Shown piece by piece: positions 17,051 to 45,786 of a DNA stretch of 45,786 nt. The translations under genes and the position numbers were made by a program. Numbering within the stretch: the stretch's first letter is position 1; each line of letters opens with the position of its first letter. A model generated the notes under the pieces. That model saw nothing but the letters and a program-made list of their open reading frames with translations. It did no database searches and had not been told where the DNA came from. Source of the DNA: a virus. The stretch lies in IMG/VR virus record IMGVR_UViG_3300007344_000051, positions 1 to 45,786 of that record; one strand, 5' to 3'.

Positions 17051-19495
17051 TTATCCAATAGTGACATACTTTGTTTTTTCAACAACCGCTATAGTAGTTG
17101 TTGATGGTTGTTCATAGGATGCATTGGAACTAACTTTATCTGCTGTTGATTTTTTATCTGCTGTTTCTATATTTGCTTTGTTATCTTTTTTAAGTGGGTG
17201 AGTATTTACCCAATTTCCAGGATCAATTTCAGATCCTTGTGGTCCAATCTCCCAATGGACGTGAGGACCTTCACTTTTTCCTGTACTACCTACTCTACCA
17301 AGAGAATCTCCCTGTTTAAATTCCTGCCCAACTTTTAATGGGGATGGTCCAACCATGTGTCCATAAAAATGAGTCTGTCCATACACAGAATCTTTCCACT
17401 CAATATAATAACCATATGAACGATCGTATGCAGCCCTAGTAACTTTTCCTGGTAAATAAGCATATAAAGGTGTTCCTGAAGGTGCAGCAATATCATATCC
17501 TCTATGATTGCTCCTAGTGCTTCTTCTATAACCCTTTCCAGATATTAAACTTGCATTGGCTCCCTTTCCAAAAGGACTATATGAAACTGTCAATGGAGCA
17601 TTTTCTCTTCCACCATATGCTACAGTTCCACTAGTTCCAGATATTCTAGCAAATTTATCACTTCCAGACAGTGGTGCAGCAGAAGGAAGTGTCGATCCTG
17701 GTCTTCTTCTTCCACTAGTTCCTCTAGTTGCCCTATCAAATCTCACCCCCGTCAATCTTTCAAAAAATGAAGTAAATGCATCAGAGATTCCATATTCTTT
17801 TTTTCCAAAAACTTTTACATCCATAAAAGCATTGTTTATTTCATCATTAAACTTACTCTTTAATGATTTAAATATTATCTTCTTTCTTTCCGTTTCAATA
17901 CTCTCTACAGATCCACCAGATGAAAGTTTTTGTGTAGTATTGAGAGGATCTCTATAAAAATCTATAATTGATGCAAAAGATTCCGATAAATCAGAGATTG
18001 ATCTATCAGATGGTTTTTGTCCCAGAGACAAATCTAAACCAATAGACGCAATTTTGGATAGGAAGGTATTGTCTTTTTTCTTTAACCTTTTTGATGCTTT
18101 AGATATTCCAGTTATTAAAGAATAATTGTCATCATAAAGTTCATTTAAATTGTTTCTACCAATACTCTTTCCTGGAATAGTATCATCTGGTTTAAAATCT
18201 TTTATTGTTTTCTTAGTCTTAGTCTTATTATCTTTGACTTTTTTATTTGTACTTCCTCCACCAGACTTTGATTGAACTTCTTTAGAATCAGATCCAACAA
18301 GGACATTATAAAGACTTACGCCTATCTGATCACCAATCAATCCACCAAGCAATGAACCAATAGCTACTCCAGCAGAACCAGCAATTATATTGCCAATAAA
18401 AGGAACAACACTACCAGCAACACCACCTATAGTACCTCCTATCCAGGCACCAAGTGCTTGTCCAGCAGCAGCTCCAACTGCACCTGCAGCTGCTTTACCA
18501 AGTGGTTCCTTAAATATAAGAGTTCTTATACCAAAATCAATAAGTGGACCAACAATTGGAATCTTGCCAGCGATTTTACCAGCAGTCTTTCCAGCAACTT
18601 TAGTAACTCCTTTTTGAACAGCTTTTTGAACACCGCTCTGAGGTACTCTTCCAGGTGCTCCTCCAGTTGGTGTTGGTGCTCCTCCAGTTGGTGTTGGTGT
18701 TCTGGACGGTCTGTTTAATCTATCTAAATTCCTTCCACCAAATCTTTCCCTAAATGCCCTATCACCATATCTTTGCCTATATCTTTGCTGAGTTCTAGTG
18801 TTTACTCTCCTACCACTTCTATCAAAACCCTTCCTTTCTGGTCCGTTAAATCTTCTATTGAGAGGATTACTTCCCCCAGAAGAGACCATCATTGCAATTA
18901 TAGCAATGTTAGCAAATTTTGTAAAAGCACTTAAAAAGTTATTTAATTTTTTCTGAGCATCTTCACCAAAAACATTTTTAACTGTGTTTGATATTGTATC
19001 AATAGTATTATAAGCAAATTCTATTCCTGTTGCTACTTTATCAAGAATTCCAGCAGCAAAATCAAATATAAATTGACCTACTGGTTTCAAAAACTTAATT
19101 ATTCCAAGTAATTTTGGTAATAATTTTACCAACCTAAGAACCAAAAATCCAGCTAATATAGAACCCAAAAATTGTTTTGCTCTATCAATTAAACTCAAAC
19201 CAGGAATAAACTTTCTAAATTTATCAAATTTATTAACTTTTTTTCTACTTTCCTTTTTGTCTTCTCTAGTATTCCTTCGCGTTCTTTCAAGATCTCTTCT
19301 AGACAACTCCAATTGTCTTACATTTATTTTTATACTTTTTTTAAGTACATCTTCAATTTTTACTACATTTTCCTTTATGTTGGATATATCTTCAGCAACT
19401 TTAAAAAAACCAGAAGAATAAAAAGTATTAGATCCACTAGAAGCAGAAGGATCTTTAGATGGATTTAATAATTTTTTGGGATCTATAACTGCCAT
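17051..19495 (-). CDS. tail protein with C-terminal M23 zinc endopeptidase domain
   Basis: An 814-residue protein. Residues 29-100 form a charged helical segment (GFFKVAEDISNIKENVVKIE and on) shared with the tape-measure-like protein upstream. Hydrophobic helices follow at 110-160, then an Arg-rich region and Gly/Ala-rich membrane-like stretches at about 310-400. The C-terminal domain, residues about 640-770, is a complete M23 peptidase: His664-x-x-x-Asp668 (NHRGYD), YGH at 711-713, and His745-x-His747 (PHVHWE). M23 enzymes cut peptide cross-links in peptidoglycan, so this protein can open the host wall during DNA injection. Its start overlaps the stop of the upstream gene by one base. Confidence 0.82.
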   Translation of the reverse strand: MAVIDPKKLLNPSKDPSASSGSNTFYSSGFFKVAEDISNIKENVVKIEDVLKKSIKINVRQLELSRRDLERTRRNTREDKKESRKKVNKFDKFRKFIPGLSLIDRAKQFLGSILAGFLVLRLVKLLPKLLGIIKFLKPVGQFIFDFAAGILDKVATGIEFAYNTIDTISNTVKNVFGEDAQKKLNNFLSAFTKFANIAIIAMMVSSGGSNPLNRRFNGPERKGFDRSGRRVNTRTQQRYRQRYGDRAFRERFGGRNLDRLNRPSRTPTPTGGAPTPTGGAPGRVPQSGVQKAVQKGVTKVAGKTAGKIAGKIPIVGPLIDFGIRTLIFKEPLGKAAAGAVGAAAGQALGAWIGGTIGGVAGSVVPFIGNIIAGSAGVAIGSLLGGLIGDQIGVSLYNVLVGSDSKEVQSKSGGGSTNKKVKDNKTKTKKTIKDFKPDDTIPGKSIGRNNLNELYDDNYSLITGISKASKRLKKKDNTFLSKIASIGLDLSLGQKPSDRSISDLSESFASIIDFYRDPLNTTQKLSSGGSVESIETERKKIIFKSLKSKFNDEINNAFMDVKVFGKKEYGISDAFTSFFERLTGVRFDRATRGTSGRRRPGSTLPSAAPLSGSDKFARISGTSGTVAYGGRENAPLTVSYSPFGKGANASLISGKGYRRSTRSNHRGYDIAAPSGTPLYAYLPGKVTRAAYDRSYGYYIEWKDSVYGQTHFYGHMVGPSPLKVGQEFKQGDSLGRVGSTGKSEGPHVHWEIGPQGSEIDPGNWVNTHPLKKDNKANIETADKKSTADKVSSNASYEQPSTTTIAVVEKTKYVTIG

Positions 19496-22128
19496 TACCT
19501 TACACCATAAATTCCATAGGTTTGTATAAGCATGGATCTAGTATTACTTGGATATACTGCAGGGAAACTTGTATCAAGATCTCTCTTACCAACACTCTTT
19601 TGTGATCTTAATTTTTGAATTTCTTCATTTGCAATATGTACCACATTTACTTTGGGTTTTGGTGGGGGAGGAATGGTTTGAGTTGCCACACTCTTTTCTT
19701 TACTGATAGTTGCTGGTAAAACTTTATTAGCAGTTTGATTTATGGTAGAAGAAGTAAATTGATTTTTATTTTGAAGTGATACTTTACCAGAATCAATTCT
19801 ATTTGATTCTGTACTTTGCACTATATTTTGATTTTGTTCTTGTTTGCTATTGTCAACAGAAACCATTTTTGTAAATGGTTGTATGTACTTATCTGCAGAT
19901 AAAGATTTCTCAATCCCTCCAAGAGATTCTTTACCAGATAATGTCGTAGTATCTTGATTATTGATATTATTGATTACTGATGTTGATTTATTTAAAGCAC
20001 TTTTATAATCCGAACTTACAAATTTATTAGTATCTATCCTATTATTCACTTCTCTATTATTGATATTGGTAGATAAATTATTAAAGATATCCCCACCAAT
20101 AAAATTACTATTCCTAATATTTTTTACATTTGATACTTGATCCGATTCAAAAGTATTATTTACATCTGCATTAAAATTATCAACTTTTTTATTAGTAGTT
20201 AAATTTAGATCAGACAAATATGAAGGATTATTTGAAGATATGTTTTGAATATTATTCACAAAATATTTTGAAATATTATTATTTTGTGAATCAAATCCCA
20301 TTTGAGTTGGTCTAATTTTACTAATATTGGAAATATTATTATTTACATTTTCAATTATACTTCTATTATTTGTAGAAGGACCTATCATTCCTCCACCAGA
20401 AGCTAGTTGTATTCCACTTGCGATTTTAGGAGCATTTGTTCCGCCACCAGATTTATTTAAAGATAAGAAGAAATCAGAACCATACTTATTAACAGCAGAA
20501 TTTGATATTACAATCTCTCCTGGTTCCAGTGCAGTAAGTTGGGTATCTTTTCCTGCACCCTTTATCCTTACACCAGTTTGATTAGTAACTTTCCCGCCAG
20601 GGAATTTCGAAATTGTTTCTTGTGGTGATTTTGGTATCTCTCCACCACCAGAATATTTTTTAGTCTCTCCCGTCTCCAATCTATAAATCTGCTCATCAAT
20701 TTCTGATCCAACTCCTTGCATTTTTTGCATTGGATTCAGATTTTCTTTCTGTTTTTTTAATGCTTCTATTTTTTCTTCTTTAGTGCCAGGAGCAGATTCT
20801 GTTTTTCTCTCTTCGGAATCAACAGTACCTGGGAACAACATTGGTATAGTTGCTCCTGCTGTAAATAATCCAACCGCTGCTGCTGCTTTTGGATTCTTCT
20901 TAATCAAATTCATAGCAGCAGGTATTCCCTTCCGCAATATTGTGAAGGTTAGTTTAACCAAAGTTCCAATAACAGTTCTTACAAGTTTTCCTATTGTAGT
21001 TCCAAATAACAAATATCCTGCAATTAAAGCAGGTCCCCAATCTTTTAAAAATCTAAGAATAGCATCAACTTTTCCCTTATTTTTAGGGTCACTCATCCAT
21101 CTGAATAATTTTAATACAATTCTTCCAAGAATTACTGTAGTTATAAACTTCAGCAATTTCTCAAATATATTTTTTACTGGTCCAAGAACCTTATTAGCTA
21201 ATTTTAATGCTCCCTTACCAATAGACTCTAATCTAGATTCATTTTTCTGCCTTTTACCCCTCTCTGAAGATTTGCGAACATTATCTATCTGTTTTTTAAA
21301 TAAATCACTCTGTTTTTGCATCAATTCAAGTATGTTAGCAACAGAATCTCTGATTGCTGCAATATCTTCTGCAAATTTAGAAAAACCAGTTTGGTTTTGA
21401 TTTTGCTGCTCTAAATCTGGAGTTTTTACAGATTCTGGATTTATAATTGCACTTGATGCAAGTGTTATAGGACTTCCAAATTGATCCCTATATTTTTTAT
21501 TGATTTTAAATCTACCAACAAGTCCTTTAACTCTAACATATTCATCCCTCAATAACATCTGCTCTTCTCTAGGAAGAGAATCAGTCCCCATATTAACTCT
21601 AACCAGATACTCCTTTAAAAGAGTTCTGTAAGTTGCATAGTCAATATCAAAGGTATCTTCTAGTCCAAGAATTCTCAAAATTCTTTCATCAATTTCCTCA
21701 TTAACTAAATCTTCCTCACGAACACCATCATACATCCTGTCTTCTCCTTCATCTGGAGATTTATTTACAGGAACGATTGTAGAAGAATCTATCTTTTCTG
21801 TAGATTCAGTTGGTTCTTCTGGCAGTTCTATTTTATCATTATCATTTACATAATATTCCCAAAGATAAATTATGTACTTATTATATGACTCATACTCTTC
21901 TGGAGAAGATGGTCTTGAAAATTTTGGAGAAGGATAATCTTTTTCAGACTTATCCCAAGAAGACATGAATATATCAACTACTCTATCAGCATCTATATTG
22001 AATGTATTTTCAAGTAAGTATTTTGAATATTCAAGTTTAGATAATATTATAGCTCTCCACATTCCCATACGCCTACTAATGGTGGCGTATGGTATATACT
22101 CTTCAATATAGTCTGGTTTAAGATCCAT
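19495..22128 (-). CDS. tape-measure-like tail protein
   Basis: An 877-residue protein. Residues 1-240 are a helical, acidic domain. Residues 247-300 are a coiled coil beginning GFSKFAEDIAAIRDS, similar to the N-terminus of the M23 protein. Residues about 300-430 hold several hydrophobic segments (FITTVILGRIVLKLF, ALIAGYLLFG, AAAAVGLFTAGATIPMLF). The rest is Asn/Ser-rich low complexity. Long helices plus membrane-like patches are typical of tape measure proteins, which set tail length and enter the host membrane. It lies directly after gp26 and the 55-residue ORF, where tailed phages place their tape measure gene. T4 gp29 similarity is not visible, so the call rests on composition and position. 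Confidence 0.6.
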   Translation of the reverse strand: MDLKPDYIEEYIPYATISRRMGMWRAIILSKLEYSKYLLENTFNIDADRVVDIFMSSWDKSEKDYPSPKFSRPSSPEEYESYNKYIIYLWEYYVNDNDKIELPEEPTESTEKIDSSTIVPVNKSPDEGEDRMYDGVREEDLVNEEIDERILRILGLEDTFDIDYATYRTLLKEYLVRVNMGTDSLPREEQMLLRDEYVRVKGLVGRFKINKKYRDQFGSPITLASSAIINPESVKTPDLEQQNQNQTGFSKFAEDIAAIRDSVANILELMQKQSDLFKKQIDNVRKSSERGKRQKNESRLESIGKGALKLANKVLGPVKNIFEKLLKFITTVILGRIVLKLFRWMSDPKNKGKVDAILRFLKDWGPALIAGYLLFGTTIGKLVRTVIGTLVKLTFTILRKGIPAAMNLIKKNPKAAAAVGLFTAGATIPMLFPGTVDSEERKTESAPGTKEEKIEALKKQKENLNPMQKMQGVGSEIDEQIYRLETGETKKYSGGGEIPKSPQETISKFPGGKVTNQTGVRIKGAGKDTQLTALEPGEIVISNSAVNKYGSDFFLSLNKSGGGTNAPKIASGIQLASGGGMIGPSTNNRSIIENVNNNISNISKIRPTQMGFDSQNNNISKYFVNNIQNISSNNPSYLSDLNLTTNKKVDNFNADVNNTFESDQVSNVKNIRNSNFIGGDIFNNLSTNINNREVNNRIDTNKFVSSDYKSALNKSTSVINNINNQDTTTLSGKESLGGIEKSLSADKYIQPFTKMVSVDNSKQEQNQNIVQSTESNRIDSGKVSLQNKNQFTSSTINQTANKVLPATISKEKSVATQTIPPPPKPKVNVVHIANEEIQKLRSQKSVGKRDLDTSFPAVYPSNTRSMLIQTYGIYGVR

Positions 22129-22285
22129 TCTGCTGCTGCTTTAATTTTTCTTCTTCAAGATGAGCCGCTAATAGAGCAACATAAACATCTCTCTCCCATG
22201 GAATCAGATTTTCAATTTCAGTTAATGAGTATTTATGGTATTGTAAGAGAGCAAAATTTAATTTATAATAATTCTCCAAATCCAT
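22118..22285 (-). CDS. 55-residue ORF, probable -1 frameshift extension of gp26
   Basis: It encodes MDLENYYKLNFALLQYHKYS and continues through an IPWERDVYVALLAAHLEEEK helix. The Pro-Trp-Glu-Arg helix resembles the small proteins encoded just before tape measure genes, such as phage P2 GpE, where it is the extension made by frameshifting. The ATG at 22285 has no Shine-Dalgarno sequence. The frame is open back to the slippery heptamer at 22303-22309 at the end of gp26, giving a fusion through the linker RIALAH. The stop overlaps the start of the tape-measure-like gene by 11 bases. Independent translation is possible but looks less likely. Confidence 0.75.
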   Translation of the reverse strand: MDLENYYKLNFALLQYHKYSLTEIENLIPWERDVYVALLAAHLEEEKLKQQQNGS

Positions 22286-22296
22286 GTGAGCGAGAG

Positions 22297-23016
22297 CTAT
22301 GCGAAAAAATCAGATAGACCCTCCAATACTACTTTGCTTTTAACGCTTGTATTTGGATTAGTAATTTCAATCTCGTGAGTTAGTTTTGGCATTGTCTCAA
22401 AAAATAACTCAATTTTTTTAAACTGTTCAGAATTCATTTGTTCCAAAAAAGAAATAAGTTCTTTTTTAGTTGTATCTGATGCAGCCCAACTTTCTTCTTC
22501 TGTGTAAATTTGATCTATACACGAAGCAATCAAATCAAAAGATTGCTCGATACTATTTTTTGCATTAAAATCAAAATTATTTTTAATGAATTGATCCAGT
22601 GAAGGATACTTCATCTCCATTGCAATGGTATCATCTATTTTAATTTGATTTGTGTGTTCATCCAATTTTTTCACTGAAATATCGTCAATATTGATTTTAA
22701 CTGGTACTACAGTTTCATTATCATCTGGACATATAATATTTACATCCAACTCTTCACCAACTGACTTACCTCTAATATTCAAAAATAAATATTCAATATC
22801 AAAAGTTGGAAGTTTTTCAACCTTTACGTTTTTAGTAAGAACACAATTTCTTATAACATTTTTAATTGCAGAAGTGATTTGTTTGGTATCTTCACTTTCC
22901 AATGCAATTACTAAGAGTTTTTCCTCTTTTACCAAAAAAGGTCTGTATTCAATCAAATCTCCAGTAGAAGGAATTTCAAGCTCATATGTTGGAGTAGATA
23001 TTGTAGGCAATGGCAT
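22297..23016 (-). CDS. 26: baseplate/tail assembly protein gp26
   Basis: A 239-residue protein of the T4 gp26 baseplate family (T4 gp26 has 208). Typical features are the PLPTISTPTYELEIPSTG start, EYRPFLVKEEKLLVIALES, and an acidic C-terminal helical half. I start at the ATG at 23016; a TTG three codons upstream is less likely. A T4-type late promoter lies at 23046-23053. Position before a small ORF and a tape-measure-like gene, together with a slippery heptamer at its last codons, suggests it acts as the short form of a tail assembly chaperone. A -1 shift would give a 299-residue long form. Confidence 0.8.
   Translation of the reverse strand: MPLPTISTPTYELEIPSTGDLIEYRPFLVKEEKLLVIALESEDTKQITSAIKNVIRNCVLTKNVKVEKLPTFDIEYLFLNIRGKSVGEELDVNIICPDDNETVVPVKINIDDISVKKLDEHTNQIKIDDTIAMEMKYPSLDQFIKNNFDFNAKNSIEQSFDLIASCIDQIYTEEESWAASDTTKKELISFLEQMNSEQFKKIELFFETMPKLTHEIEITNPNTSVKSKVVLEGLSDFFA
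22303..22309 (-). promoter_or_regulatory. candidate -1 programmed ribosomal frameshift site
   Basis: The last gp26 codons read GAT TTT TTC GCA TAG. This places T TTT TTC in the exact X-XXY-YYZ phase needed for simultaneous tRNA slippage. After a -1 shift the ribosome would read CGC ATA GCT CTC GCT CAC and enter the 55-residue ORF in frame. The zero-frame stop is only one codon further. I see no strong stem-loop downstream. Confidence 0.72.
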
Positions 23017-23067: not shown

Positions 23068-23907
23068 TTATCTACCACTTGGTCTAATTGAACCCCTAGG
23101 TGCGCTAGCAGCATCCCTATTTTGAGCAGATTGTCTTAAAGAGTTCTCTCTTGCTTGTTTTCTAGCATCTTCAAGTTGTTGCTGACTATATCTCCAAGAA
23201 TTGCTCTGTTCTTCTCCATCTACTCCTGGAGTTGAAGGTCTATCAGTTTGTGGTTGAGATAACTCAGTACTATAAACTTCTCTTTTAATATAATATCTAC
23301 TATAACTAATACTAACAGTAGCTTTTAAGGTATCAGATGCATCATAACTAATTGGCATAGATGATATTGATAATGGAAATGCTTCTGTAAAATAATATCC
23401 TAAAAACTCTTTAGATCCCGAAGTTACTTTTGATCCCAAATCTCTTTCATATTTTGCAATTCTAATCTCAGATTTATAGTCTGTAGGATATCTTATCCTA
23501 GTATAAAAATCTGGACCATCCATTCTACCAATAATATCTTCACCAGAAGCATACTTCATCCACATTTCAAAAAATCTAATTTGTTGGTAGTTACTATCTT
23601 TAGTAACTAAAAAAGTAAGGTCTATAGAATTATCATACATTCTTCTATAAATGTTTTTTTGGGAAACTCCCATATAATCATTATCAATATCTATTGTCGC
23701 TAGTTGAGATCCTGGTAAAGAAGCTTCTATACAAGTCAATTCAAATAGTTCTTTATCATAGTCTAACCCCAATTCAGAATTTATCTGACTTAATAAATTT
23801 GATGGAGGTACAATATCAACACTATAAAAAGATGTAAGAGCTGGATTCAATATCCTGCTCTTAAGAGTGCTCATATTAACACCAGGATTTACTGGTATAT
23901 TTGACAT
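23068..23907 (-). CDS. tail tube-fold baseplate protein, gp54-like
   Basis: A 279-residue protein. Residues 20-210 fit the tail-tube fold shared by T4 gp19, gp48 and gp54: LTSFYSVDIVPP, ELTCIEASLPGSQLAT, NSIDLTFLVTKDSNYQQIRF, FPLSISSMPISYDASDTLKA. The last 60 residues are a Gln/Arg/Ser-rich tail. gp54 caps the baseplate hub and starts tube polymerisation. gp48, the partner cap, is encoded divergently close by, which fits. The gene is the first of the long minus-strand tail block. The gp54 assignment is by fold pattern and context only. Confidence 0.52.
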   Translation of the reverse strand: MSNIPVNPGVNMSTLKSRILNPALTSFYSVDIVPPSNLLSQINSELGLDYDKELFELTCIEASLPGSQLATIDIDNDYMGVSQKNIYRRMYDNSIDLTFLVTKDSNYQQIRFFEMWMKYASGEDIIGRMDGPDFYTRIRYPTDYKSEIRIAKYERDLGSKVTSGSKEFLGYYFTEAFPLSISSMPISYDASDTLKATVSISYSRYYIKREVYSTELSQPQTDRPSTPGVDGEEQSNSWRYSQQQLEDARKQARENSLRQSAQNRDAASAPRGSIRPSGR

Positions 23908-41233: not shown

Positions 41234-41500
41234 TTAAGGCCAAAAAGGAAGAGGTTTATCTTCAGACTCTACTAATTCAAGGTGTTTTTTTAAATCATTT
41301 GTATAGTTTGATTGTGGTACAACATGATTAGTAGGAAGCTCTTTATTATTAAGAGCTTCTACAGTAACAGTTTCTTTCCACTGCAAACGGTTTGTTTTGT
41401 ATGTTCCTTGACGACTATTTGCTAAGAACTTAGCGTCTCTTTCATTACCACAATCTGCAATTTTTTTACCACTAGAATCATATACAGTATAATAAATCAC
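41234..41500 (-). CDS. hypothetical protein
   Basis: An 88-residue protein. The start MIYYTVYDSSGKKIADCGNE then RDAKFLANSRQGTYKTNRLQ reads as a small alpha/beta domain. The end is Pro-rich and acidic (ESEDKPLPFWP). The ATG overlaps the talC stop by four bases, so it is translated with talC. No family is recognised. Confidence 0.68.
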   Translation of the reverse strand: MIYYTVYDSSGKKIADCGNERDAKFLANSRQGTYKTNRLQWKETVTVEALNNKELPTNHVVPQSNYTNDLKKHLELVESEDKPLPFWP

Positions 41501-42192
41501 ACATCTACCTCAGTGTCTTTAACAACAGAATTAGTAGCAACCTTCCAATCAATATTAAATTGATCAAGTCCTTTATCAGTCATTACATTTTTATACATTG
41601 CCCAGAATACTTTTGGAGGAATAGTTACTACATCTGCTCCATTGATTGCACACTGTTCAACCTGTCGAACATCACGAACAGATGCTCCAAGGATATATGG
41701 GATATGATAGTTGTAGTGAGTAGGAGATTGATCATACACTTTACGAATCCTTGCAATAAGATCTAATCCATCAACAGAGTTGTCTTCCCACCTTCCAACA
41801 AAAGGAGAGATGAAAGTAGCGCCAGCTTTAGCAGCAAGGATTGCTTGAGCAACAGAAAATACTAATGTAACATTAGTTTGGACATCTTTCTTGTACAATT
41901 CCTTACATGCTTTAAGTCCTTCTACTGTACATGGAAGTTTGATAGTCATTGATGGAGAAATATCAATGTAATATTGTGCCTGTTGAAGCATCTCTTCTGC
42001 AGTATCAGCAACAACTTCACAAGAAATACTATCAAGTTCTGGGCATTGTGTATTAAGAAGAATAGCAACTGATTGAAGAGTGTTACCACTCTTCATGATA
42101 AGTGTCGGGTTTGTAGTTACACCATCAATTAAACCAGTATCATATGCTTTGATAATTTCAGGAATCTCTGCAGTATCGATAAAAATTTTCAT
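41497..42192 (-). CDS. talC: transaldolase, TalC type
   Basis: A 231-residue small transaldolase. IFIDTAEIPEI, GVTTNPTLIMKSG, Lys85 in MTIKLPCTVEG as the Schiff-base lysine, and FISPFVGRWED are all in place. It moves a dihydroxyacetone unit between sugar phosphates in the pentose phosphate pathway. Cyanophages use it with gnd, zwf and cp12 to make NADPH and ribose. I start at the ATG at 42192; a longer frame would run into the terminator and promoter upstream. The mRNA leader is short, U-rich and has no Shine-Dalgarno sequence. Confidence 0.94.
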   Translation of the reverse strand: MKIFIDTAEIPEIIKAYDTGLIDGVTTNPTLIMKSGNTLQSVAILLNTQCPELDSISCEVVADTAEEMLQQAQYYIDISPSMTIKLPCTVEGLKACKELYKKDVQTNVTLVFSVAQAILAAKAGATFISPFVGRWEDNSVDGLDLIARIRKVYDQSPTHYNYHIPYILGASVRDVRQVEQCAINGADVVTIPPKVFWAMYKNVMTDKGLDQFNIDWKVATNSVVKDTEVDV

Positions 42193-42216
42193 AAAAAAGA
42201 GGATCTCTCGATCCTC
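42193..42216 (-). terminator. intrinsic terminator before talC
   Basis: On the minus strand GAGGATC, loop GAGA, GATCCTC form a 7-base-pair stem (42216-42199) followed by six T (42198-42193). The talC start codon follows at once, so the terminator ends the upstream transcript and overlaps the talC leader. Confidence 0.82.
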
Positions 42217-42245
42217 AGTATAACACATAAATTTACAATTGACAA
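42217..42245 (-). promoter_or_regulatory. sigma70-type promoter of talC
   Basis: The -35 TTGTCA (42245-42240), a 17-base spacer and -10 TATACT (42222-42217) lie just before the terminator hairpin. Transcription starting near 42210 would omit the 5' stem arm, so the talC transcript escapes the terminator that stops reads from upstream. Confidence 0.75.
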
Positions 42246-43266: not shown

Positions 43267-44328
43267 TCATAGCGCGTTGCCACGAGGGAGAACTTCCTCT
43301 GGAAAAACAAAGTTTTCGTGTGGTTGGTCTACTGGTGCCATCCAGGCACGAAGTCCTTCATTCAATAGAATGTTCTTTGTGTAGAAGGTCTCAAACTCTG
43401 GATCTTCTGCTGCTCGAACCTCTTGCGATACAAAATCATACGCACGCAAATTAAGTGCCAAACCAATAATACCAATAGAAGAGACCCAAAGACCCATAAC
43501 TGGAACAAAAAGCATAAAGAAATGCAACCAGCGTTTATTGCTGAACGCAATACCAAAGATTTGAGACCAGAACCTATTGGCAGTAACCATAGAATAAGTT
43601 TCTTCTTCTTGTGTGGTATCAAATGCTTTAAATGTATTTGATTGTTCACCATCTTGATACAGAGTATTCTCTACTGTCACTCCATGAATTGCTGAGAGAA
43701 GTGCTCCACCCAGTATACCCGCTACACCCATCATGTGGAAGGGGTTGAGCGTCCAGTTGTGGAAACCTTGGAGGAATAGGAGGAATCTAAATATCGCTGC
43801 AACACCAAACGACGGCGCAAAGAACCAACTGGACTGTCCGAGAGGATACAAGAGAAAGACAGACACAAAGACAGCAATGGGACCAGAAAACGCGATTGCA
43901 TTGTACGGACGGATACCTACTAGACGTGCGATTTCAAATTGCCTGAGCATAAAACCTATAAGGGCAAAGGCTCCGTGGAGCGCCACAAAATTCCAGAGTC
44001 CCCCAAGTTGGAACCAGCGGATGATATCTCCTTGAGACTCAGGACCCCAAAGTAGAAGAAGAGAATGACCCATAGCATCAGCAGGAGTTGACACAGCTGC
44101 CGTGAGGAAATTAGCACCCTCAAGATAACTAGACGCCAGTCCGTGGGTATACCAGCTCGTAACAAACGTTGTGCCAGTAAGCCAGCCACCAATTGCCAAA
44201 TAAGCAGTGGGAAAAAGTAATAGTCCAGACCAACCCACAAATACAAAGCGGTCTCGTTTAAGCCAGTCATCCAAGACATCGAACCATCCTCTCTGTGAAA
44301 TGGGTGGGGAAAGTGTTGAAGTAGTCAT
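43267..44328 (-). CDS. psbD: photosystem II D2 protein
   Basis: A 353-residue D2 reaction centre protein (host D2: about 352). [20 protein letters not shown] is the D2 (not D1) start. [11 protein letters not shown] holds the TyrD tyrosine. [20 protein letters not shown] and [18 protein letters not shown] carry the chlorophyll, iron and quinone ligands, with five transmembrane helices. It replaces turning-over host D2 during infection to sustain electron transport. AAAGGAG is a good Shine-Dalgarno sequence, and a promoter lies at 44355-44383. psbA is not in this window. Confidence 0.97.
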
Positions 44329-44939: not shown

Positions 44940-45064
44940 TGTGCTGTACCATTCCCATCGTAATCATCACTATCATAATATACAGTCTCTCCTTTGTAAA
45001 ATCCAAAGAAGAGAGTTGTAAGTACAAATGGAATGCAAACCCAGAAGAGTATATTACCGAACAT
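44936..45064 (-). CDS. 42-residue membrane protein
   Basis: It reads MFGNILFWVCIPFVLTTLFF, then GFYKGETVYYDSDDYDGNGT and AH. One transmembrane helix (residues 3-21) is followed by an acidic, Tyr-rich tail. The ATG lies inside the last codons of gnd with GGAGGA as the Shine-Dalgarno sequence, also within gnd. No family is recognised. Confidence 0.68.
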   Translation of the reverse strand: MFGNILFWVCIPFVLTTLFFGFYKGETVYYDSDDYDGNGTAH

Positions 45065-45786
45065 CGTGTCCTCCAAACATTGCTCTCATACCATTCAAGA
45101 CTTTATTTGCAAATCTTCCAAGTTGTCTTGATCCGAATCGTTCATATAATGCACTGCTAATGACAGGAGCGGGAACACCGAGATCCACAGCAGCGTGAAC
45201 AGTCCAACGACCCTCACCACTATCGCTAACTCCCCCATCGAACTCGCTAAGCTCTCTATCGCGGCGTAATACAGTAGCGGTAAGATCAAGTAACCAAGAC
45301 CCAACCACAGAACCACGACGCCACAACTCAGCCACCTCAGCAACATTAATATCGTAGCAGTAGTCTTTTGGATTATCCATTGGAGCGACTTCTGCGTCTC
45401 CTGCTTTGACATACTTTGCTCCCGCATTTGCTTCATGTAGGATATTAAACCCTTCTGCGTATGCTTGCATGATTCCATACTCAACACCATTGTGAACCAT
45501 CTTCACAAAGTGCCCAGCACCAGGACCACCACAGTGCAACCAACCTAACTCAGACTGCCTAACATAGTCGCCAGGTTGTGTACGTTCGGCGGCATCAATT
45601 CCTGGGGCGAGGGCGTTAAAAATGGGACTACAAGTGGCGACCGCAGTATCTCCGCCACCAACCATAAGACAGTATCCACGCTCCAGACCGTAAACACCAC
45701 CACTAGTGCCACAGTCAATATACGCGATGCCAAGTTTTGCAAGGCGCTCTGCTCTTTTCCGACTGTCCTTAAAATTGCTATTGCCA
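45054..45786 (-). CDS. gnd: 6-phosphogluconate dehydrogenase, N-terminus outside the window
   Basis: The C-terminal 243 residues of a decarboxylating 6-phosphogluconate dehydrogenase. IDCGTSGG with GLERGYCLMVGG is the substrate-binding segment. GAGHFVKMVHNGVEYG carries the catalytic lysine. WRRGSVVGSWLLDLTATVL and the end RFANKVLNGMRAMFGGHDV fit the family. It oxidises 6-phosphogluconate to ribulose-5-phosphate with NADPH. The gene continues beyond the right edge. With talC and CP12 it fits the cyanophage pentose phosphate set. The stop overlaps the 42-residue gene. Confidence 0.95.
   Translation of the reverse strand, partial: GNSNFKDSRKRAERLAKLGIAYIDCGTSGGVYGLERGYCLMVGGGDTAVATCSPIFNALAPGIDAAERTQPGDYVRQSELGWLHCGGPGAGHFVKMVHNGVEYGIMQAYAEGFNILHEANAGAKYVKAGDAEVAPMDNPKDYCYDINVAEVAELWRRGSVVGSWLLDLTATVLRRDRELSEFDGGVSDSGEGRWTVHAAVDLGVPAPVISSALYERFGSRQLGRFANKVLNGMRAMFGGHDVR

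Follow-up and report, generated by a model that had tools for sequence, protein, structure and literature searches.

The gp26 locus of a marine cyanobacterial virus raises the question of whether gp26 and the short open reading frame (ORF) behind it, known as 'gp51' or baseplate hub assembly catalyst, are two genes or one. The analyzed sequence (hereinafter the window) is the whole 45,786-nucleotide stretch of IMG/VR record IMGVR_UViG_3300007344_000051, a 45.8-kb fragment; all coordinates given for the gp26 locus refer to the minus strand. Elsewhere in the window are three genes that, by eye, we take to encode PsbA (the photosystem II D1 protein, 43267-44328), transaldolase (41497-42228) and the C-terminal part of 6-phosphogluconate dehydrogenase (45054-45665), which are usual host-metabolism genes of cyanophages.

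The gp26 gene (22297..23016, minus strand) encodes, from its ATG, a 239-residue protein that profile matches place in the PF12322/phrog_150 family (PF12322 T4_baseplate, 5.6e-73; phrog_150, 8.3e-77). The last codons are GAT TTT TTC GCA TAG, with the TAG at 22299-22297, and the heptamer T_TTT_TTC at 22303..22309 fits the slippery pattern X_XXY_YYZ exactly in the gp26 frame. After a -1 shift at this site, the frame RIALAHMDLENYYK... runs to a TAA at 22120..22118, adding an extension that ends in ...QNGS and the stop (22118..22303); the predicted fusion comprises 238 gp26 residues and the 61 residues RIALAHMDLENYYKLNFALLQYHKYSLTEIENLIPWERDVYVALLAAHLEEEKLKQQQNGS, 299 in all. The 55-residue 'gp51' ORF (22118..22285) lies in the same frame, and its ATG, at 22285-22283, lacks a Shine-Dalgarno (SD) sequence (duplex energy -0.3 kcal/mol). 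The initial annotation had described the phased heptamer, the open -1 frame, the 299-residue fusion and the ATG without an SD sequence, and all these details, which can be read from the sequence, are correct. The genes of the window contain 98 in-phase A/T heptamers in approximately 12,500 codons, and among these only the one in gp26 lies close to a stop and is followed by a long open -1 frame. Peptides predicted for the fusion are VVLEGLSDFFR and IALAHMDLENYYK (which reads through the junction), and the predicted N-terminal peptide of a free 55-residue product is MDLENYYK.

Comparison of 208 gp26 junctions from IMG/VR and GenBank phages, 179 of them distinct, detected an in-phase TTTTTTN in 163 of the 179. 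The carriers include Kyanoviridae as well as Pelagibacter, Vibrio, Aeromonas, Cronobacter, Stenotrophomonas, Pseudomonas, Agrobacterium and Sinorhizobium phages. All 160 junctions that are long enough to test have a -1 frame free of stops over 45 codons, and each of the two remaining frames is interrupted by a stop in every junction. In Pelagibacter phage Mosig, the stop is shifted 21 nt downstream, but the heptamer remains in place and the -1 frame open. Because the junctions are related sequences and the counts do not represent independent events, the argument rests on the spread over several phage families; nevertheless, the conservation of the heptamer and the open -1 frame rules out chance. 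The initial annotation had proposed such a comparison of gp26 ends across cyanomyophages, and it shows that both features are conserved.

The pattern of codon usage at the site indicates selection on the bases and not only on the encoded peptide. Of the 141 junctions of the cyanophage type, in which the motif precedes the stop by nine bases, 136 have TTT_TTC as the codon pair, 3 have TTT_TTA and 2 have TTT_TTT, whereas TTT_TTC accounts for only 8 of the 139 other Phe-Phe pairs in the same gp26 genes. Furthermore, the codon 5' of the pair ends in T in all 141 junctions, despite encoding four different amino acids (Ser, Asp, Asn and Gly). In some relatives, Phe is replaced by Leu (TTA), yet the heptamer is retained.

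The heptamer is absent in 16 of the 179 distinct junctions, namely, 14 of the Ackermannviridae type, the one in Vibrio phage K469 and the one in the aberrant contig L182. In the Ackermannviridae-type junctions (Klebsiella phage 0507-KN2-1 and its relatives) and in K469, the tail ORF is still in the -1 frame. The Ackermannviridae-type gp26 genes end in ATT TTC ATT/ATC TAA, and the tail ORF, which is open in the -1 frame, overlaps the stop as TAATG in some of these phages but has ATT in place of that ATG in others. Contig L182 is nearly identical to HTVC008M except that its gp26 frame ends early, probably because the gene is broken or was sequenced with an error. A search of viral contigs with gp26 of Agrobacterium phage ph04 as the query found no relatives.

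On both sides of the heptamer, there are candidate stimulators of frameshifting. Upstream, an SD-like GGAGGG (22319..22324), 9 nt 5' of the heptamer, is predicted to form a -9.9 kcal/mol duplex with the 3' end of 16S rRNA, and the anti-SD match across relatives peaks at this position. The observed strength of this motif (-7.2 kcal/mol, against -6.3 kcal/mol after synonymous codon resampling) derives mostly from a conserved Glu-Gly, so that, as independent evidence, it adds only modestly to the conservation of the peptide. Downstream, the window contains a weak stem-loop (22268..22300; -3.6 kcal/mol, z +0.4), and most relatives have a much stronger one: compared with shuffled sequences, folding of this region in relatives is more stable, with a mean z of -2.1, against 0 to -0.5 in controls. 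Paired changes are observed in the stem (GGTCC/GGACC, GATCC/GGATC, GGTTC/GAACC), and the hairpin is 79% paired in the closest group, against at most 50% when slid, and 89% against 66% paired in the P-HM1 group. One consensus hairpin shared by all groups is weak because the distance to the stem differs between groups, whereas the group-wise stems are good. In the relatives L002 to L080, the hairpin, 17-30 bases past the start of the heptamer, often has the downstream ATG in its loop (GGTCC-ATAT-GGACC).

The arrangement could also be explained by termination at the gp26 TAG followed by reinitiation at a nearby ATG, which would yield a free 55-residue gp51 and no fusion. GenBank and RefSeq do annotate a separate gp51, and an ATG occurs shortly past the stop, within a few codons, in many relatives, with overlaps of the TAATG or TGATG type in a few, but such start codons are an inconstant feature of the junction. 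No ATG, GTG or TTG precedes the conserved core in 41 of the 162 distinct junctions; where an ATG is present, the position of the first one varies between codons 3 and 11, and most of these ATGs lack an SD sequence (median -0.7 kcal/mol across relatives). Moreover, reinitiation leaves unexplained both the invariant T_TTT_TTC and the conservation of R-[IVL]-[AGS]-[LM]-x-H, the -1-frame peptide of the stretch that separates the heptamer from the usual ATG. Thus, we consider reinitiation as the sole mechanism to be quite improbable. The initial annotation had held that homologs with a 55-residue ORF located far from gp26, or equipped with a strong ribosome-binding site of its own, would refute frameshifting; across the cyanomyophages compared, the ORF adjoins gp26 and frequently lacks a start codon of any kind.

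Slippage could, alternatively, occur during transcription, with RNA polymerase slipping on the T run such that the fused frame would be present in some of the mRNA itself. The motif is indeed a T run, which reaches 8 T in HTVC008M and C48C1, but in the window and nearly all relatives it consists of six T and then C or A, and the exact codon phase is kept; transcriptional slippage would favor longer runs and require no phase, and would not account for candidate ribosomal stimulators in the correct places. This explanation appears marginally less probable still than reinitiation. A combination in which frameshifting yields the fusion and reinitiation the free gp51, both tuned by the hairpin, would accommodate the ATG in the hairpin loop and the presence of some ATG in 118 of 154 relatives; given that start codons are conserved neither in place nor in presence, it seems unlikely as well. 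A more specific version, which we regard as rather doubtful, is that the cyanophage hairpin has a dual role, stimulating the -1 shift and, with the AUG in its loop, gating reinitiation, so that the short chaperone, the long chaperone and the free 55-residue gp51 would be produced in a set ratio. The preferred reading, to which we assign a probability of about 0.9, is that gp26 and the 'gp51' ORF are a single gene with a programmed -1 ribosomal frameshift, the products of which would be the tail assembly chaperones TAC-N (gp26 proper) and TAC-NC (gp26 with the extension).

The relationship between gp26 and gp51 of phage T4 supports this reading. The window gp26 matches T4 gp26 (hhalign E = 1.9e-17). 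Like the C-terminal part of T4 gp51, the 55-residue tail matches phrog_634 (1.8e-25) and the C-terminal region of phrog_150 (positions 241-280). The 249-residue T4 gp51 also matches PF12322 (3.9e-52) and phrog_150 over almost the full length, and therefore corresponds to the long form encoded as a separate gene; T4 gp26 and gp51 are paralogs (BLASTP, 2e-6). Because T4 genes 26 and 51 are on opposite strands, their fusion is impossible. T4 would thus use two genes for the short and long forms, and the phage analyzed here, along with many others, a single one; no second gp26-like gene, as in T4, was found in the 45.8-kb record. It is gp26/gp51 that were reportedly described in 2022 as the chaperone genes of T4-like phages, which is consistent with the matches found here. 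Both T4 proteins have been classed among the chaperones of hub assembly, with gp51 not being part of the particle (PMC3004832). T4 gp26 additionally matches phrog_1140, the gp28 family, weakly (9e-4), and gp28 may be a further chaperone relative.

Structural comparison points in the same direction at a level that is not statistically significant. For the AlphaFold model of gp26 (pLDDT 88), the PDB structures ranked highest by fold-match probability are the HK97 tail assembly chaperone 2ob9 (probability 0.77, E = 0.99, rmsd 2.9 over 63 columns) and YqbN (3klu, 0.35), with E values of about 1-2. A sequence search of solved structures returned nothing relevant.

At the end of gp26 of this virus, ribosomes very probably slip back by one base, yielding a second, longer form of the helper protein. 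The majority of the ribosomes would terminate at the TAG and release the 239-residue short form, whereas in a minority, with tRNA-Phe in both the P and the A site, pairing would slip from U UUU UUC to UUU UUU, giving the 299-residue long form. The two forms are best read as a tail assembly chaperone pair akin to gpG and gpGT of phage lambda. By analogy with lambda, the gp26 part would coat the tape measure protein, the tail of 55-60 residues would recruit tail tube subunits or hub parts, and neither form would remain in the virion. The gene order fits a chaperone pair: immediately upstream of gp26 is the gene for the tail tube protein (23068..23907, minus strand; phrog_45, 3.9e-29; PF23849, 1.3e-15), and the tail ORF is followed by genes for long proteins. 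The analogy with lambda G/G-T drawn in the initial annotation is supported by this order and by the fact that T4 gp51 is a paralog of gp26 with the same tail, and weakly by the fold.

Several known systems resemble the one proposed here. Lambda gpG/gpGT, P2 E+E' and the counterparts in Mu-like phages and HK97 consist of a short form and a -1-frameshifted long form, as proposed here, and are encoded between the tail tube and tape measure genes. The lambda heptamer is G_GGA_AAG, in contrast to U_UUU_UUC here, and no sequence similarity was detected between lambda gpG and the gp26 profile. In Escherichia coli dnaX, highly efficient frameshifting at A_AAA_AAG involves an SD-like element about 10 nt upstream and a downstream hairpin; the candidate stimulators at gp26 are of this type, although the heptamer is different and the hairpin in the window is weak. 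In Pseudomonas phage Adele and the Andersonviridae, a poly-T motif is present at the end of the TAC-N gene, the -1 frame is open in every genome and the downstream part is annotated as a separate gene; the motif is GTTTTT, and the phages belong to other families (PMC12846349). A 2016 review described the G-T frameshift as widespread among long-tailed phages 'except T4' (PMC5009743). According to PMC12846349 and PMC10885494, the tail assembly chaperones of T4-like phages were identified by Vladimirov, Gautam and Davidson (Virology 2022, 566:9-15), whose work is cited in the Adele paper (PMC12846349) with regard to poly-T signals for frameshifting in TAC-N genes of the T4-like type, and in the PRFect paper (PMC10885494) with regard to the arrangement of a short gene plus a fused gene. 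Accordingly, the suggestion in the initial annotation that the device operates in a T4-like phage gains support from the conservation, whereas the idea itself, as those two papers present the 2022 work, is not new.

To that work, the present analysis adds the near-universal conservation in cyanophages, the selection at the codon level, the missing start codons, the candidate stimulators, the exceptions and the probably erroneous annotations of 'gp51'. Among the phage records that match the tail, 438 of 547 are named Synechococcus phage or Cyanophage. None of the annotated records that we opened joins gp26 to the second ORF; several label the latter 'baseplate hub assembly catalyst', and in S-CAM1, S-CAM4, ACG-2014d, ACG-2014j, Aeh1 and LPCS28 there is an annotation gap at its position. 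Judging from the sequences, the annotation of 'gp51' as a separate gene in cyanophages is probably wrong. If the frameshift reading holds, the cyanophage 'gp51, baseplate hub assembly catalyst' is the end of a frameshifted chaperone and has no gene of its own, and many records omit the chaperone tail entirely. Under the same premise, there is a simple account of the puzzling essential gp51 of T4: it would be the long tail chaperone, separated into a gene of its own. This account and the reannotation of gp51 both follow from or extend the 2022 work.

The two long proteins encoded downstream are tape measure candidates. The 877-residue protein (19495..22128, minus strand), the gene of which overlaps the 3' end of the 55-residue ORF by 11 nt, is a candidate by its position immediately downstream; it matches phrog_35029, a family of unknown function, and resembles a 766-residue protein of S-SM2. 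The 814-residue protein (17051..19495, minus strand) contains an M23 peptidase domain (PF01551, 8.2e-22) and matches the tape measure family phrog_167 (1.4e-20). The assignment of the tape measure role to either is plausible. In HTVC008M and Vibrio phage D482, family matches place a tape measure-like protein directly behind the tail ORF or one gene further on. The 877- and 814-residue proteins (17051-22128) share a segment of about 150 residues with 25% identity (1e-8), which would fit a duplication of a tape measure-like gene.
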